Made by a program: the position numbers and the translations under genes
Assembly (NCBI GenBank): GCA_945881985.1
Contig: CAMCVL010000002.1
Span: forward strand, 124,001-188,000
DNA length: 64,000 nucleotides
Reading direction: 5' to 3'
From: Rickettsia typhi
GTDB taxonomy: Bacteria; Pseudomonadota; Alphaproteobacteria; Rickettsiales; Deianiraeaceae
The notes under the pieces: model-generated
Database searches by the model: none
Seen by the model: only the letters and a program-made list of their open reading frames with translations
What the model was told of the DNA's origin: nothing
Part shown: positions 11,736 through 60,502 of the stretch, in pieces
Layout: each line of letters starts with the position of its first letter
Position numbering within the stretch: position 1 is the stretch's first letter

Positions 11736-11993
11736 ATGAATCAAAGCCAAGCAAATCAATCGCAAGGGCAAGGTGACAAGTGTTACAGCTTGCAAAGCAA
11801 TCTAATCTCAGGCACTTTAAATGCAGATTTAGCAAGTGTAATGTCTTTAGGTTTTAAAGAGGAAAGAACAAGCAATTTTACAAATGCACACATTACCGCA
11901 GCAACCGATACCGCAATAACTGACGCCACTCACGGTCGCAAAAAACCTAAAAGTGCCACAATGCCTGATAGTGGCTCCACCCCTTGCTTTTAG
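11736..11993 (+). CDS. small hypothetical protein
   Basis: 85-aa ORF, Q/N/T rich, no recognised domain. Confidence 0.35.
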   Translation: MNQSQANQSQGQGDKCYSLQSNLISGTLNADLASVMSLGFKEERTSNFTNAHITAATDTAITDATHGRKKPKSATMPDSGSTPCF

Positions 11994-11995
11994 AT

Positions 11996-13132
11996 ATGAC
12001 AATACTTAATCAAATTATCCAGTATAAAACAGAATTTGTTAAAAACTGCAAAGCAAGCTTAATCTTACTTTTGGTGATTTTTTGTTTTACATTTCACCAA
12101 AAAGCATTTTCGCAAATTCATAGCCATGGATACATAGGAGCCATGCAGTTTGATATAAAAGAGGATAGATTTAATCTTAAAAATTCTGGTGGCAAATGTA
12201 AATATATCTTTAAAGATTCGCATTTTCACCCAAGGGATTTTACTGTGAATGGTCAAAGTCTTGCCCTAATTGCCAAGCAGGCAAGTGATAATTGTGTTGA
12301 TAGAATACTTTTAAACTCTCTACCTCTTATAAACCACTGGGGTGACGATAGCGATGTTAGACCAACTTATTACACCGATGATAAGTCAAAGTTTTACTGG
12401 AACACTATATCCGACATTCCAACATTTGAAGAGTATAGAAAGCTTGATAAAAAAACAAAAAGTAAGTTCTATTTTTTAATTAACGGCTTTTTGCATTTTG
12501 ACCGCAGTGCTAAGGATGCAGTTTTGCAAACTATTCAAACATACAAAGATTTACCGATTGTTGGATTTGGTGAAATTTTTGGCGATCACGATATAATGAG
12601 CGATCAAATGAATCCCCCTTCCAGCATAAACTCAAAAGCAATGGATGAAATTTACGAGATTGCAGCAAGTAAAAATTGGTTTGTTTTGTTTCATAACAAT
12701 ATATCTCACCGCTCTTTTAAGGGTGCAACTGGCACAGATTATTTAACTAAAGTTGAGTCAATGCTATCAAAACATTCTAGCACAACCTTTGTATGGGCAC
12801 ATGCTGGCATAATGCGTAACATAGTTATTGAAAACCTTACCGATGTTTTAGATTTAATGCTTGCAAAGCATTCAAATTTATACATTGACATATCTTTTGT
12901 AGTCTACGAAAACTACATAATGGCAAGTGGTATGCCGGACGCAAAATGGATTGAACTTATTGAAAAATATCCCAATAGATTTTTGTTTGGCACTGACGAC
13001 CTTGGGGGCTATAAAGATTTTAGCGATGTAAAAAAATATATACCTTTATTAAATGCTTTAAAACCAACCACTGCTGAAAATGTTGCTGGTAAAAACTTGC
13101 AAAACTTAATTAATAAAGCTTTATCATCATGA
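11996..13132 (+). CDS. putative exported amidohydrolase-like (TIM-barrel metal-dependent hydrolase) protein with trpC-derived N-terminus
   Basis: DSHFHPRD, VGFGEIFGDHD, LFHNN, FVWAHAG, RFLFGTDDLGG motifs; hydrophobic LILLLVIFCFTF near N-terminus; first ~20 residues match downstream TrpC. Confidence 0.75.
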   Translation: MTILNQIIQYKTEFVKNCKASLILLLVIFCFTFHQKAFSQIHSHGYIGAMQFDIKEDRFNLKNSGGKCKYIFKDSHFHPRDFTVNGQSLALIAKQASDNCVDRILLNSLPLINHWGDDSDVRPTYYTDDKSKFYWNTISDIPTFEEYRKLDKKTKSKFYFLINGFLHFDRSAKDAVLQTIQTYKDLPIVGFGEIFGDHDIMSDQMNPPSSINSKAMDEIYEIAASKNWFVLFHNNISHRSFKGATGTDYLTKVESMLSKHSSTTFVWAHAGIMRNIVIENLTDVLDLMLAKHSNLYIDISFVVYENYIMASGMPDAKWIELIEKYPNRFLFGTDDLGGYKDFSDVKKYIPLLNALKPTTAENVAGKNLQNLINKALSS

Positions 13133-13941
13133 GTATTTTAAATCAAATTATCCAGTATAAAACAGAATTTATTAAAAACTGTAAAGCAAACCTTAGCTAT
13201 GCTAGCCTTTTACAAAATGTTAAACCTTTGCAATCTACAAAGCCTAGCTTTAAAACCGCCATACAAAACAAGCACAAGCTTGGTGAGATTGCTATTATTG
13301 CCGAAGTTAAAAAAGCATCCCCATCTGCAGGGCTTATAGACAAGGGTGAAAATTTTGATTACCTTGCAATTGCAAAGCAGTATCAGGCTGGCGGGGCAGC
13401 TTGCCTTTCGGTTTTAACCGATGAAAAGTTTTTTCACGGTCATCACTCTTACCTAAGCAATATCAAAAAAGCATTACCTAACATGCCCCTTTTACGCAAG
13501 GACTTTATCATTGACCCTTACCAAATTATTGAGGCAAAATTTATTGGGGCGGATTGCATCTTGCTCATTGCCTCCTGCCTTGATAAAAGTCAGTTAAAAG
13601 AGCTTGAGTCCGTAGCTATAGAGTACAATCTTGATGTTTTGTGCGAGATACATGACGAGGCAGAGCTTGACATAGCCTTAAGCAACCTAAAAACAAGCTT
13701 AATTGGCATTAACAACCGCAATTTAAAAACTTTTACTACAGACATATCGCTTACAAATAAGCTTTTTAACAAGGCAAGTAACGGGGGCAAAAATATTGTG
13801 GTAAGCGAGAGCGGAATTAACACAAAAGATGACATAGATTTTATCACCCAAAACTCTGGCTGTAAAACATTTTTAATTGGCACCGCTTTAATGGCTAAGC
13901 AAAACAAGGCACAGGCTATTAAGGATCTATGTGGTTTGTAA
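13129..13941 (+). CDS. trpC: indole-3-glycerol phosphate synthase
   Basis: IAEVKKASPSAGLI, AACLSVLTDEKFFHG, LLRKDFIIDPYQI, IGINNRNLKTF, VSESGI. Confidence 0.97.
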   Translation: MSILNQIIQYKTEFIKNCKANLSYASLLQNVKPLQSTKPSFKTAIQNKHKLGEIAIIAEVKKASPSAGLIDKGENFDYLAIAKQYQAGGAACLSVLTDEKFFHGHHSYLSNIKKALPNMPLLRKDFIIDPYQIIEAKFIGADCILLIASCLDKSQLKELESVAIEYNLDVLCEIHDEAELDIALSNLKTSLIGINNRNLKTFTTDISLTNKLFNKASNGGKNIVVSESGINTKDDIDFITQNSGCKTFLIGTALMAKQNKAQAIKDLCGL

Positions 13942-24439: not shown

Positions 24440-25129
24440 ATGATAAAAATTTGCGGACTTACCAAAAAAACAGAGCTTGACCTTGTTTGCAGCCTGCATT
24501 TTGGCTTTGCAGGCTTTGTTTTGTATAGCAAATCCCCAAGATACATATCTATTGAAAGCCTAAACAAATTAGATTTACATCACGAGCAATATAAAAACAT
24601 CATCAAAACAGCCGTTTTTGTAAAACCAAGTAAAGATGATATTAAGCAAGCGGTATCTGCGGGCATTGATGCGGTTCAGCTACACGGGGGTGAAGGCTTG
24701 CTTTGCACTCTAAGATTGCAAAAATTTTTGCGACAAAAGCATCCTAGTATTTTGCTAATAAAAGCCTTTGGCGTTAAGGGCGGTGTGGGGCTTTTTTTAA
24801 ATTTGTTTTTGATGAAAATATTGCAAAAAAAAGTAGATTATTTTTTACTAGACGCCCCCTCAAAGCAACACGGCGGCACTGGGCAAAGCTTTAATTGGCA
24901 ATTGCTTGATAATAAAATTTTTAAATTCTTCTTTAAAATAGCAATTGGCAAAACCCCATTTTTTATCTCCGGCGGAATCAGCGAAAGCAATATACAAAAA
25001 GCCTTAAGATACAGCAACTTTGTTGATTTGTCATCTGGGGTTGAGTTAAGCAGGGGCGTTAAAAGTGAGGCAAAAATTATATCTTTGGCAAAATTTTTAC
25101 AAGATTTAAGTTTATTAAAAGATAAGTAA
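24440..25129 (+). CDS. trpF: phosphoribosylanthranilate isomerase
   Basis: IKICGLT, GFVLYSKSPRYI, VQLHGGE, DYFLLDAPSKQHGGTGQSFNW, FISGGIS. Confidence 0.95.
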   Translation: MIKICGLTKKTELDLVCSLHFGFAGFVLYSKSPRYISIESLNKLDLHHEQYKNIIKTAVFVKPSKDDIKQAVSAGIDAVQLHGGEGLLCTLRLQKFLRQKHPSILLIKAFGVKGGVGLFLNLFLMKILQKKVDYFLLDAPSKQHGGTGQSFNWQLLDNKIFKFFFKIAIGKTPFFISGGISESNIQKALRYSNFVDLSSGVELSRGVKSEAKIISLAKFLQDLSLLKDK

Positions 25130-25821
25130 TGATGAATTTAAAAGCTGAGGATTTAAAGCTAACTAAAGCCAATCTGGTAAAAAAATTAAAAGCAGAGTTT
25201 TTAGTTAACGGCGATACTGCTGAATACTTTGTGGAAGATTTCTTTAATTACATAATCAGCCAACCGGCATTTGAGCTTGTGGGTATCGGCAGGTTTGAAA
25301 AAAGGCAAAAACGCAGTTCAAATTTATTGCAACTTAAAACTGCAACAGATTTGTCAAAAACTACACTTGCAAAATACAAAGTTTGTTTTAAAACTTTTAA
25401 GTCCCTTAAGCAACAAATTTATGCAGAGGGCGGTTTTATTAATGCGGAGGTTATGGCAAAAAGCAAAGAAACTGGCAATATGCCGATAGGCGAAGTTGCA
25501 AAACTTTTAGGCGTTGAGGCTCACACAATAAGATTTTGGACAAAAGAATTTGAGCCCCATATCGCTTATACAATTGGCAAAGGCGAGCGTAAGTATTACT
25601 CTCTTAGCTCGGTGGAAGTGTTTAAAAAAATTCAGGAACTCATTCATGTTAAAGGCGTTAAAATTAGATTTATCAAGGAAAATAACCTCTTGTTTCAAAA
25701 CTACGCACCGCAAAGCCTTGCTAGCCAAGATTTACCCTCTGGCAATGAGGCAAAAATAAATGATGTCTTAAGTCAAATATCCACCGAAATTCAAAAGCTT
25801 ACTGCAAAGCTTAAGTCTTAA
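25129..25821 (+). CDS. fusion ORF: IHF/HU-like N-terminal domain plus MerR-family HTH C-terminal domain
   Basis: N-term LTKANLVKKLKAEF...FVEDFFNYIISQPAFELVGIGRFEKRQKRSSN...YKVCFKTFKSLKQQI (IHF-like); C-term MPIGEVAKLLGVEAHTIRFWTKEFEPHIAYTIGKGERKYYSLSSVEVFKKIQELIHVKGVKIRF (MerR). Confidence 0.85.
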   Translation: MMNLKAEDLKLTKANLVKKLKAEFLVNGDTAEYFVEDFFNYIISQPAFELVGIGRFEKRQKRSSNLLQLKTATDLSKTTLAKYKVCFKTFKSLKQQIYAEGGFINAEVMAKSKETGNMPIGEVAKLLGVEAHTIRFWTKEFEPHIAYTIGKGERKYYSLSSVEVFKKIQELIHVKGVKIRFIKENNLLFQNYAPQSLASQDLPSGNEAKINDVLSQISTEIQKLTAKLKS

Positions 25822-26786: not shown

Positions 26787-29036
26787 ATGTATAATGAAGT
26801 TGAAACTTTTAAGTATATTGTTTTTATTTTTTCATTATTTTTTGCAATTAAAATGATGCAGGCAAATAAAAAGCAGTTCTTTATTATCAGAGCTACGGAA
26901 TATGCCTTATCCTTTTTGGAATCTGCTTTGGACCTTGATATAAGAGTAAATTTTGAAGACCAAATACCCCAAAATCGCCCAGTGCTTTTTGTTGCAAATC
27001 ACTTTACTCGTGCCGAGACTTTATTGGTGCCGCATATTTTAAAAAAATATATATCAGTAATGCCTCGCAGCCTTGCAGACAAAGGGCTGTTTGCTAGCAA
27101 TTTTTTAAAAGACTATCTTGCAAAAGCAAATGTAATATCAACTGGCGACCCAAAGAGAGACGATATAATTGTTGCCGATCTTGTAAGCGGCGATGAGCCT
27201 TGGATTATCTACCCAGAGGGCAAGATGCTAAAAGATAAGCTTGCAACCGAGATTGTTGATGGCGAAGAGCGTTTTGTTGCAAAAACTGGTGCGGCGGTGC
27301 TTGCTATTAAAGCCGAACAAAAAAGACTTAATCTTATTAAATCCTACTTAAAACAAAACCCCGATATAAAAAAACAAGACTTGCAAAATAAGGATTACAT
27401 AATTTTTGATGGGCAAAAAGTTGCAACCAGATCTCTTGCAATTGTTCCAATTTCAATTACCTATACGCCAATAAAGCCACAGCCAAACAGCCTTGAAACA
27501 AATATTATGAAGTTTATCAAAAAAACATCACCAAGGCTAAAAGAAGAAATAAGAATGGAAACATCTATCCTTTTAAACTCTACAATGGATATATACTTTA
27601 CAAGACCCATTGAAACAAGCGATTACATCACAAGTCAAGGCGTGATGAGTGCCTTACCTTTTTTAAATGTAACATCAAGAGAAAACTACGCAATTGACAA
27701 GCTACGCCACAAAGTTACAAAAGCAATGATGAAGCAAATTTACGACAAAACATTGATAAACATGGAGCATATTCTTGCCAGCACAATCTTTGAGCTTTTA
27801 AAACTTGGTAAAAATGAGATTAAAATACAAGACCTAAGCAGCATTTTACTTGTAAAATGCCAGATACTTGAAGATAGCTTTACCTCGTCTCACAGGCTTG
27901 ATGAGGCTCTTAAAAAAGGAGAAAATATTATTAAATCCGAGGAATTTAAAAGCGTTATAGATAACGCCATCTATCAAAATCTTTTACATCTTGATGGTAA
28001 TGTTATTAAATTTAACACCAATAATTTACTAGCCGAGCATCAAATACACGCAATCCGCACATCTAATATACTAAAAGTTTTTGATAATGAATTCAGTTAT
28101 TTTAAAAATATTAAAGCAAAACTTGCTAAGGTTAGTTCAACATCTTTAAAACACCTCAACATGGCTGCTGCAGACATTTTAATTAAGCACGATGCAGAGA
28201 ACTTTGAAAATGATTACGCAAACTATGCCATACAAGGCGAAAGTAAGCCAAAAAACATCTGTAAGCCTTTTTTGTTAAGGGCAAAAAATGGCTCAGATGA
28301 GCTTGGTATTGTTTTGTCGCACGGTTATAAATCTGCCCCAGAGGAAGTGCGTGAACTAGCTCAGCATCTAAGCAATAACAATATAAATGTTTATTGCGTT
28401 AGGTTAAAAGGGCATGGCACAGCGGCACGCAACATGCAGCACATTAATTACACAGACTGGATTGACAGTTTTGAAGCTGGCTACAACATAATAAGCCGTG
28501 TTGCTAAAAAAGTGTTTGTTGGAGGTTTTTCAACAGGGGGGCTTGCCTCAATTGCCTTTACAAACAGGCTTAAAACTCAGCTTGGGGCAGCGGGTGGCAT
28601 TTGCGGGATAGTATCGATTAACTCCGCCCTTAGAATAGGTGATATTAAATTTAAATTTGCCCGTGTTGCAAAGCTTGGTATTGACTTAGTTAATAAATTT
28701 AAATCTGGCGAGGCAAAGATACACGATTATGTTGTTGATAAACCCGAAAATCCTCACATCAACTACTCAAAAAATTACCTGCACGGACTAAGTGAACTTG
28801 CTTTACTTATAGAGCATTGCGACAAAAATCTTGAAAACATATCCGAGCAGATACTTGTGATACAAGGCTCAAACGACCCAGTAGTTGACCCAGTTAGTGG
28901 AGATATTATTTTTAACAAGGTTAGCTCAATGTCAAAAAGTCTTTACAAGCCACAAAGAAGCCGTCATGTTATCATAAGGGGGGATGGCTCGCAGGAAGTT
29001 TTTGAAAAAATCACAAACTTCATTCGCAGCGTCTAA
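26787..29036 (+). CDS. fusion: PlsC/LPLAT-like acyltransferase domain plus alpha/beta hydrolase (esterase/lipase-like) domain
   Basis: VLFVANHFTRAETLL and WIIYPEGKM (LPLAT motifs); GIVLSHGYKSAPEEV, VRLKGHG, VFVGGFSTGGLASIAF, VIQGSNDPVVDP, SRHVI (hydrolase). Confidence 0.85.
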   Translation: MYNEVETFKYIVFIFSLFFAIKMMQANKKQFFIIRATEYALSFLESALDLDIRVNFEDQIPQNRPVLFVANHFTRAETLLVPHILKKYISVMPRSLADKGLFASNFLKDYLAKANVISTGDPKRDDIIVADLVSGDEPWIIYPEGKMLKDKLATEIVDGEERFVAKTGAAVLAIKAEQKRLNLIKSYLKQNPDIKKQDLQNKDYIIFDGQKVATRSLAIVPISITYTPIKPQPNSLETNIMKFIKKTSPRLKEEIRMETSILLNSTMDIYFTRPIETSDYITSQGVMSALPFLNVTSRENYAIDKLRHKVTKAMMKQIYDKTLINMEHILASTIFELLKLGKNEIKIQDLSSILLVKCQILEDSFTSSHRLDEALKKGENIIKSEEFKSVIDNAIYQNLLHLDGNVIKFNTNNLLAEHQIHAIRTSNILKVFDNEFSYFKNIKAKLAKVSSTSLKHLNMAAADILIKHDAENFENDYANYAIQGESKPKNICKPFLLRAKNGSDELGIVLSHGYKSAPEEVRELAQHLSNNNINVYCVRLKGHGTAARNMQHINYTDWIDSFEAGYNIISRVAKKVFVGGFSTGGLASIAFTNRLKTQLGAAGGICGIVSINSALRIGDIKFKFARVAKLGIDLVNKFKSGEAKIHDYVVDKPENPHINYSKNYLHGLSELALLIEHCDKNLENISEQILVIQGSNDPVVDPVSGDIIFNKVSSMSKSLYKPQRSRHVIIRGDGSQEVFEKITNFIRSV

Positions 29037-57497: not shown

Positions 57498-57602
57498 AAG
57501 TGCAAAAATAAATCTATAATTTAATTTTATAATTGTTTATCTTTGTGTTGTTTAAGTTTGTAGTTAAAGTTTGTGTTTTTAAGGATTGCGAGGTTTTTAA
57601 CC

Positions 57603-58934
57603 ATGTTAAATTTTAAGTTTTTATTAAATCCAAGGTTTGCAGCTGTGGCAATTTGCATTGCTGGGCTTACTGCCTGTGGCTTTCAGGACGAGATAGCAAA
57701 CAGGCCTTCGGCTGAAGCATCAAGCAATCAAAATGGACCAAAGATTGATAGCTCCTATCAATACAGAGTTAACGATGGTTATGATAAGGTTGTTAGTGTA
57801 AAAAATAACGATACTCAGATAAAGCAAGATGTAAAGCAAGCACCAATTAACGACCCCTTTGTTGTAAAAAAGGAAGATGACTTGCAGCAAGTGCAACCTG
57901 TTGCCGATGTTAAAGATGGTGATTTACAAGTGGCAAAAGAGGAGGTGCAAAATGAGGAATTAAAAAAACAGGAAGAGCCATCTCAAGCTACAGCTCAACC
58001 TGCGGCAGTGGCTACCGTATTGCCAGCCACTAAGCCTGCAAATGTAGCATTGCAACAAGAAGTTGACAAAAAACAAATATCAGCAACAAATGCTACAAAA
58101 TACACGGTGCAACAGGGGGATACTATGTTTGGTATTTCCAAAAAAAGTGGCAAAAGCATAGCAAGTATTAAAGAGCTTAATAATTTACCTCAGGATAGTG
58201 ATAAGGTTTATATAGGTCAAGTGCTTATTTTGCAGCTTGACAAGCCCGAACCAAAGAATTTAAATGCAGTAGGGCAGGGTGCTGGTGATGATTTACCAAG
58301 TTTTCATGTTGTGCAGGCAAAGGAAACCGCCTATTCAATATCCAAAAGATACAATATACCATTGGCTAACCTTGCAAGTCTTAACAATTTAAACGAGCAA
58401 TATGCCTTGCAAAAGGATCAAAAACTACTTTTAAAACCTCTAAGCTCACAACCTAGTCAGCAAAATATTGAGGCGAACAGCCAATATACTCCTAAGGCTA
58501 AGGCTTTAGTGCAAGCTCAGACGGAGCAAAAACCTAAGCAGGAGGAAAAAGTGTTAAAGCAGGCTTCGGTTCAGTCTGGCTATGCCTATCCTAGTACCGC
58601 AAAAATAGTATCATATTTTGGCGAGGGTAAAAAGGGGCTTTACAACGACGGATTGCTTTTTGATGTACAGTTAGAATCCGATGTTTTTGCCGCCAAGGAA
58701 GGCACTGTGTTTTTTGCTTCCTTTGTAAAAAACTATCAAAATCTTATCATACTAAAGCACGACGATGGTCTTTTAAGCGTCTACGGCAATCTTGATAGTA
58801 TGATTGTAAAAAAAGGTGATTTTGTTAGCAAGGGTCAGCAAGTTGGTACTGTGTCGCCACGAACAACAAAGACTCTATTTTTTAGTATAAGAAACACAAA
58901 TAAAGCCTTAAACCCCCTAAATTATATTAAATAA
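57603..58934 (+). CDS. lipoprotein with two LysM domains and an apparently catalytically degenerate M23-like domain (NlpD/EnvC-like)
   Basis: lipobox LTACGF; YTVQQGDTMFGISKKSGKSI and FHVVQAKETAYSISKRYNIPL LysM; C-term NLIILKHDDGLLSVYGNLD...KGQQVGTVSP. Confidence 0.85.
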   Translation: MLNFKFLLNPRFAAVAICIAGLTACGFQDEIANRPSAEASSNQNGPKIDSSYQYRVNDGYDKVVSVKNNDTQIKQDVKQAPINDPFVVKKEDDLQQVQPVADVKDGDLQVAKEEVQNEELKKQEEPSQATAQPAAVATVLPATKPANVALQQEVDKKQISATNATKYTVQQGDTMFGISKKSGKSIASIKELNNLPQDSDKVYIGQVLILQLDKPEPKNLNAVGQGAGDDLPSFHVVQAKETAYSISKRYNIPLANLASLNNLNEQYALQKDQKLLLKPLSSQPSQQNIEANSQYTPKAKALVQAQTEQKPKQEEKVLKQASVQSGYAYPSTAKIVSYFGEGKKGLYNDGLLFDVQLESDVFAAKEGTVFFASFVKNYQNLIILKHDDGLLSVYGNLDSMIVKKGDFVSKGQQVGTVSPRTTKTLFFSIRNTNKALNPLNYIK

Positions 58935-58951: not shown

Positions 58952-60502
58952 ATGGCTGACTTAGATATTTTAAACAAAGTAAAATTTGATAGCAATGGCT
59001 TAGTGCCGGTAATTACAACCGATTATTCAAGCAAAGAGGTTTTGATGCTTGCATACTTTAACAGGCAAAGCCTTGAGCAAACTATGCAAACTGGCATAGT
59101 GTGTTACTACTCTAGGTCTCGTCAGCAACTTTGGGTAAAGGGGGCAACAAGTTCAAACTATCAAAAACTTAGATCCATTAGCCTTGATTGCGATGCTGAC
59201 ACAATACTCTTGCAAGTTGACCAGCTTGGGCCTGCTTGCCACACTGGTGTAAAAAGTTGTTTTTTTAACAATCTGCCAATAAACGCTGATATTGCAAATG
59301 GTTTTGCCCGTCAAAAAGTTGCGGTTTTTGGCTCAACTGGTTCAATTGGCAAAAGTAGCATGGATGTGTTGCTTGAGTGCAAAGATAGCTTTGAAATTGT
59401 CTTGCTTACCTGCGAGTCAAACTATCAACTATTACTACAGCAAGCAAGCGTTTTACGCCCAAGCTTTATACTAATTGAAGCACCATTGCAGCCTTTGGTA
59501 AGGCAACAAATTATAAACGAGGCGTCGCAGTTTAACACTAAGGTAATTTTTGGCAGCATTACAGAGCCGGAAACACTTTTAAATCTTAAGCAAATTGACT
59601 TTAACACTGCAATACTTGCCGTGCCTGGTTTTAGGGCGGTAAGACATCTTGCGGCTATATTTGAAAACAAAAATATAACAAAAATTTGCCTTGCAAACAA
59701 AGAGAGTATAGTGTGTCTTGGCGACCTGTTATTTAAAATGGCTGCGCAAAGATGCGTTGAAATAGTGCCGGTGGACTCGGAGCATAACTCGGTTTTTAGC
59801 ATTCTTGGCGGGTTTAAAACAAGCGGGGTTGAAAGCCTTGTGATTACGGCTTCTGGCGGGGCATTGTTAAATGTTTTAGAGGCTGACCTTGGCAAGGTTG
59901 CTGTTAAAGATGTTATGCGTCACCCAAACTGGAATATGGGTGCAAAGATTACACTTGATTCCTCAACTCTAGCAAACAAGGGGCTTGAGCTTATTGAGGC
60001 ATGCAGACTTTTTAATTTGGATGAGTCAAAAATTGAGGTTTATATCAACAGAACCTCCCATTTACACGGAGGGGTGAGGTTTTTGGATGGTAGCTTTGTT
60101 AGTTTTACATCCAAGCCCAGAATGCAAACTCATATAGCAAGGGCACTTTTTTATCCATTTGAGTCTGGATATAGGCAGGCAATTGGTGATAAAAGCCTTG
60201 ATTTATGCAATCAGCTAAATTTTATCTTAGAGCCTGTTGACTACAAGCGTTTTGACCTCTTGCAACTTGCCAGAGAGGTGAGCTTTAGCGTAAAACTTAG
60301 TATGGCATACAATATGTTTAACGAGCTTGCCGCAAGTAAATTTTTTAACGGAGATTTGCAATTTGCCGCAATAGCACCATATGTGCGTAGCAATATTGAG
60401 TCATTAAAGCAAAAACTCAGCACAGCAGATTTAAAATCTAGCTTTGAAACCTTGGAGGAAGTCTTTGAATTTTACAACACACTAGGCACATTTCAATCTT
60501 AA
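58952..60502 (+). CDS. fusion ORF: phosphoribosyl-AMP cyclohydrolase (HisI) plus 1-deoxy-D-xylulose 5-phosphate reductoisomerase (DXR)
   Basis: HisI: EVLMLAYFNRQSLEQTMQTG, YYSRSRQQLWVKGATSSNYQKL, DCDADTILLQVDQLGPACHTG; DXR: KVAVFGSTGSIGKSSMDVL, LANKES, PVDSEHN, TASGGAL, RHPNWNMGAKITLDSSTLANKGLELIEA. Confidence 0.95.
   Translation: MADLDILNKVKFDSNGLVPVITTDYSSKEVLMLAYFNRQSLEQTMQTGIVCYYSRSRQQLWVKGATSSNYQKLRSISLDCDADTILLQVDQLGPACHTGVKSCFFNNLPINADIANGFARQKVAVFGSTGSIGKSSMDVLLECKDSFEIVLLTCESNYQLLLQQASVLRPSFILIEAPLQPLVRQQIINEASQFNTKVIFGSITEPETLLNLKQIDFNTAILAVPGFRAVRHLAAIFENKNITKICLANKESIVCLGDLLFKMAAQRCVEIVPVDSEHNSVFSILGGFKTSGVESLVITASGGALLNVLEADLGKVAVKDVMRHPNWNMGAKITLDSSTLANKGLELIEACRLFNLDESKIEVYINRTSHLHGGVRFLDGSFVSFTSKPRMQTHIARALFYPFESGYRQAIGDKSLDLCNQLNFILEPVDYKRFDLLQLAREVSFSVKLSMAYNMFNELAASKFFNGDLQFAAIAPYVRSNIESLKQKLSTADLKSSFETLEEVFEFYNTLGTFQS

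Follow-up and report, generated by a model that had tools for sequence, protein, structure and literature searches.

The question raised by this locus is whether a single bacterial gene really encodes two enzymes of unrelated pathways, and what such a join means. Within the window, i.e., the whole stretch of 64,000 nucleotides analysed, the original prediction placed at 58952-60502 a single 516-aa open reading frame (ORF) in which HisI, an enzyme of histidine biosynthesis, is followed by DXR, an enzyme of the MEP pathway. The ORF itself, together with the Pfam and NCBIfam matches, bears this out: the frame on the plus strand is unbroken and contains a complete HisI (PRA-CH), a linker of about 12 residues and a complete DXR. 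The proposed fusion between unrelated pathways is thus supported as a genuine HisI-DXR protein, with the following layout.

57573..58934, + strand: LysM and peptidase M23 (NlpD-like) gene, directly upstream of the fused ORF with a gap of 17 nt (Pfam/NCBIfam)
58952..59275, + strand: HisI (phosphoribosyl-AMP cyclohydrolase) domain, residues 1-108 (Pfam PF01502, NCBIfam PRK00051, 1zps alignment)
59276..59311, + strand: linker, residues 109-120, with neither canonical start codon nor stop (comparison with the second species, AlphaFold)
59312..60499, + strand: DXR (1-deoxy-D-xylulose-5-phosphate reductoisomerase) domain, residues 121-516 (PF02670/PF08436/PF13288, E. coli dxr alignment, Foldseek)
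60500..60502, + strand: stop codon TAA, the only one of the fused ORF

Composition of the fused reading frame

The PRA-CH domain lies at residues 32-105 of the fused protein and covers its whole Pfam profile (1-74 of 74; E 1.4e-32, 111.8 bits against a cut-off of 27). The score obtained with the NCBIfam HisI equivalog PRK00051 is also above its cut-off (154.9 vs 126). The DXR Pfam domains are found in the expected order, with DXP_reductoisom at 123-257, DXP_redisom_C at 271-354 and DXPR_C at 387-506. The NCBIfam Dxr profile TIGR00243 is covered over positions 3-360 of 389, with a score of 252.9 bits that falls below its cut-off of 315.7, a curated naming threshold that is no property of the enzyme itself. 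The C-terminal half is thus a divergent DXR, and its placement in the DXR family rests on the Pfam domains, the active site and the fold, this cut-off aside.

The junction had been located at about 59270-59310, which proved right. HisI homology stops at about residue 107-108 and the DXR Rossmann motif KVAVFGSTGSIG begins at 122. The standalone HisI proteins of relatives (shortest ORFs 108-119 aa) terminate where the HisI half does, and their standalone DXR proteins (start M-x-KKI..GSTGSIG) begin where the DXR half does, so the join contributes just about 12 extra residues. It had also been proposed that the HisI stop was missing rather than replaced by a linker; the loss of the stop is confirmed, whereas the absence of a linker is not, since this short segment is present. 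No in-frame ATG, GTG or TTG is found between codons 87 and 137 of the window ORF, or between codons 30 and 150 of its counterpart in the second species, and the DXR half cannot therefore be started alone by a standard codon in either of them. The PRA-PH domain of HisE (PF01503) is absent after HisI in the Pfam analysis of the fused protein, which is thus not a HisIE.

Recurrence in a second species and distribution

The same fusion is carried by G001, a different species of the same genus represented by a separate MAG (contig CAMDBF010000035.1); both fusion-bearing genomes are incomplete MAGs (about 86-89%). The two proteins are 55% identical over residues 5-508, with identical residues at 74 of 105 positions in HisI, 202 of 387 in DXR and 2 of 14 in the linker, and with no frame-breaking indel. 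The linker is of equal length in both proteins and its sequence is unconserved. The upstream LysM/M23 gene is common to the two loci. One PRA-CH and one DXR match are found in the genome of the window, both in the fused ORF, with no further hisI or dxr copy.

These data bear directly on the possibility that an assembly or sequencing error (a lost stop or a frameshift) merged two adjacent separate genes. The window does sit in a draft assembly of 16 contigs, but the join is found again in another species, whose MAG is separate and whose protein is 55% identical, and a separate DXR would lack a start codon in both species. Sequencing error, which had been raised as the way in which the fusion might prove spurious, is excluded because an independent species bears the same fusion, short of an identical error in both assemblies, and the probability left to any such artefact is negligible.

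The domain-architecture search that had been suggested confirmed the PRA-CH and DXR Pfam domains and found their combination limited to one genus among the genomes searched. Of the 352 genomes of the order, 2 carry the fusion, both in this genus (g1). No further case was detected in samples of 387 genomes from the class and 399 from the phylum; the cut-off applied to the phylum was one that only matches spanning both domains should pass. A pattern scan of genome contigs, with patterns that reach close relatives only, retrieved G001 as the only fused relative. Open frames of 500-680 aa around DXR in some class members were considered as candidate fusions and rejected, their matches being confined to the DXR part. 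The literature searches returned no match for a HisI-DXR fusion, and none for Rickettsiales MAGs with histidine biosynthesis. The earlier statement that no standard HisI-DXR fusion is known is thus upheld, with no widespread family in anything searched.

Comparison with known systems helps to define what is new. With HisI (PF01502; PDB 1zps), the fused protein has in common the full domain, the metal ligands and a score above the NCBIfam equivalog cut-off, but it runs in frame into DXR instead of ending at a stop or continuing into HisE. HisIE and HIS4 (HisI-HisE and HisI-HisE-HisD) are likewise multifunctional proteins with HisI at the N-terminal end. They join, however, steps of one pathway, as do all the known his fusions described in PMC1963479, whereas the partner found here belongs to another pathway and HisE is separate. 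The whole fold and the catalytic residues are those of type I DXR/IspC (PF02670, PF08436, PF13288; PDB 3a06, 1k5h), from which the fused protein differs by its N-terminal HisI extension, the replacement of E. coli H251 by N and its divergent sequence. IspDF, the only MEP-pathway fusion mentioned in PMC10663253, also involves an MEP enzyme, but it couples two of them and the present protein contains one. The HisI-DXR architecture is new as far as searched; it is not a new kind of system.

Signs of function in both halves

The HisI metal ligands D79, C80, D81, D83, C96 and C103 are kept in the alignment with PDB 1zps, within the motifs DCDxD, ACHTG and SCF. Alignment of the DXR half with the E. 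coli enzyme shows that D275, S276, E277, H278, S301, H324 and W327 correspond to D150, S151, E152, H153, S186, H209 and W212, and that M329, S337, N342, K343, E346 and H372 correspond to M214, S222, N227, K228, E231 and H257; E. coli N211 is likewise conserved. The catalytic or substrate-binding roles of these DXR residues are well established. Both fused proteins have N at the position of E. coli H251, a residue present without exception in 24 relatives that belong to the order but not to the family. DXR activity may be weakened, given this replacement and the divergence of the DXR half. The lack of an HPQS motif was considered as a sign of lost catalysis and this interpretation was rejected, since the E. 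coli DXR alignment shows that the catalytic H257 is retained and that only H251 is altered.

Comparison of the two species gave pS/pN values (proportions of changed sites) of 0.67/0.20 for HisI, 0.75/0.34 for DXR and 0.56/0.73 for the linker, a rough estimate with synonymous sites near saturation, which suggests that protein-level constraint acts on both domains and not on the linker. The AlphaFold2 model, based on a 27-sequence alignment, has a mean pLDDT of 92 and consists of two confident domains with a single break at 113-117 (pLDDT <50), and the linker is predicted to be disordered. The best PDB matches retrieved by Foldseek are DXR structures (3a06, E 9e-31, TMt 0.90).

HisA, HisF, a standalone HisE (a separate 106-aa gene elsewhere), DXS and IspG are all present in the genome of the window, so that each activity has a pathway to serve; IspH lies near the fused gene in G001. 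Each half would be expected to fold and to catalyse its own reaction, phosphoribosyl-AMP cyclohydrolysis for the one and conversion of DXP to MEP with NADPH for the other.

Of note, MEP enzymes have a different status in a sister genus of the same family (g2, family f1). In its member G008, neither DXR nor IspG gave a match and DXS gave no strong one; DXR matches are also lacking in other g2 genomes. This genus seems to have lost the MEP pathway.

Origin and significance of the join

By the AU test, the DXR half is consistent with vertical descent in the DXR lineage of the family itself (p 0.69). In three other members of the family (L067, L068 and L069), dxr adjoins or lies near a ruvA-like gene, as judged by eye, and dxr thus seems to have moved in g1. 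In a tree of weak support, the HisI half clusters with standalone HisI from other families of the order, the sister genera using HisIE; derivation from the family's own HisIE is not favoured by the tree and not rejected (AU p 0.09).

Several other fusions were encountered in the same family. A HisA-HisI-HisE protein of 458 aa is encoded in G008 (L060:1420-2796, - strand), and HisA is joined to a DNA alkylation repair domain (PF08713) in a 470-aa protein of G003, a single-contig genome (L061:1518-2930). The window itself encodes, at 25129-25818 (+), a 230-aa protein combining an IHF/HU-like domain (weak, E 4e-4) with a MerR regulator. It is present in both g1 genomes, with a nearly full-length match of 54% in G001, and other family members mostly match only its MerR part. 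Given such repeated gene fusions, the simplest reading is a neutral origin driven by compaction.

Two further loci of the window deserve mention. The opening of trpC, about 50 bp, recurs in near-identical form in the ORF that precedes it, again at the start, and the rest of that ORF encodes an amidohydrolase-like protein (11984-13132 and 13129-13941, +); this looks like an insertion or a duplication at trpC. The 749-aa protein encoded at 26787-29036 (+) has an acyltransferase domain at its N-terminal end and an alpha/beta hydrolase domain at its C-terminal end.

The best explanation of the HisI-DXR gene, in which good confidence can be placed, is that it yields a bifunctional protein with N-terminal HisI and C-terminal DXR connected by a short flexible linker, specific to this lineage and tolerated or mildly favoured. 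The fusion would have arisen once, in the ancestor of the genus. As the most likely route, we infer that hisI came to sit just upstream of dxr, and that the HisI stop and the DXR start were then lost. Nothing points to channelling, and we infer its absence, the best reading being that the enzymes are physically linked and metabolically independent. A link without metabolic logic could have been tolerated, or mildly favoured by a single start signal, a fixed 1:1 ratio and a compact genome, the setting being probably a fast-evolving, small-genome Rickettsiales-type lineage with several such fusions; the large number of small genomes in the order is in keeping with Rickettsiales.

Other explanations accept the fusion and differ in what becomes of it. 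One half, for example DXR, could be decaying as a degenerate passenger, in keeping with its fast evolution, its score below the naming cut-off and the replacement of H251 by N. This is most improbable, considering that the catalytic residues are retained, that the DXR pN is far under its pS, and that the genome, in which DXS and IspG are present, has no other dxr. Alternatively, the translated fusion could be cut at its disordered, unconserved linker to give two ordinary enzymes, but no processing site is common to both linkers, and such a cleavage appears very unlikely.

A function of its own is also conceivable for the fusion, either through co-regulation of histidine and isoprenoid synthesis, or because the HisI homodimer dimerises or stabilises DXR, or the reverse. 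HisI and DXR are indeed both known homodimers, two species retain the fusion though their proteins are just 55% identical, and the length of the linker is the same. Against this stand the lack of any shared metabolite or cofactor logic, a linker that is unconserved (2/14) and predicted to be disordered, and the fact that the family fuses other unrelated pairs too, which favours a neutral origin. Such a function is therefore considered unlikely. The same doubt applies to the strong form of this idea, a functional inter-pathway enzyme that couples the two syntheses through a common oligomer, joint regulation or stabilisation of each half by the other and became fixed in one reduced-genome Rickettsiales genus; it is improbable.

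Gene fusions serve to infer functional linkage, an approach known as the "Rosetta stone" method. Two metabolically unconnected enzymes in a conserved fusion would be a clean counter-example to this type of inference. If coupling were true, histidine and isoprenoid synthesis would instead be connected in an unexpected way. The other unrelated fusions of this family, such as that of HisA with a DNA-repair protein, offer a natural set of cases for testing how fusions originate and persist in shrinking genomes.
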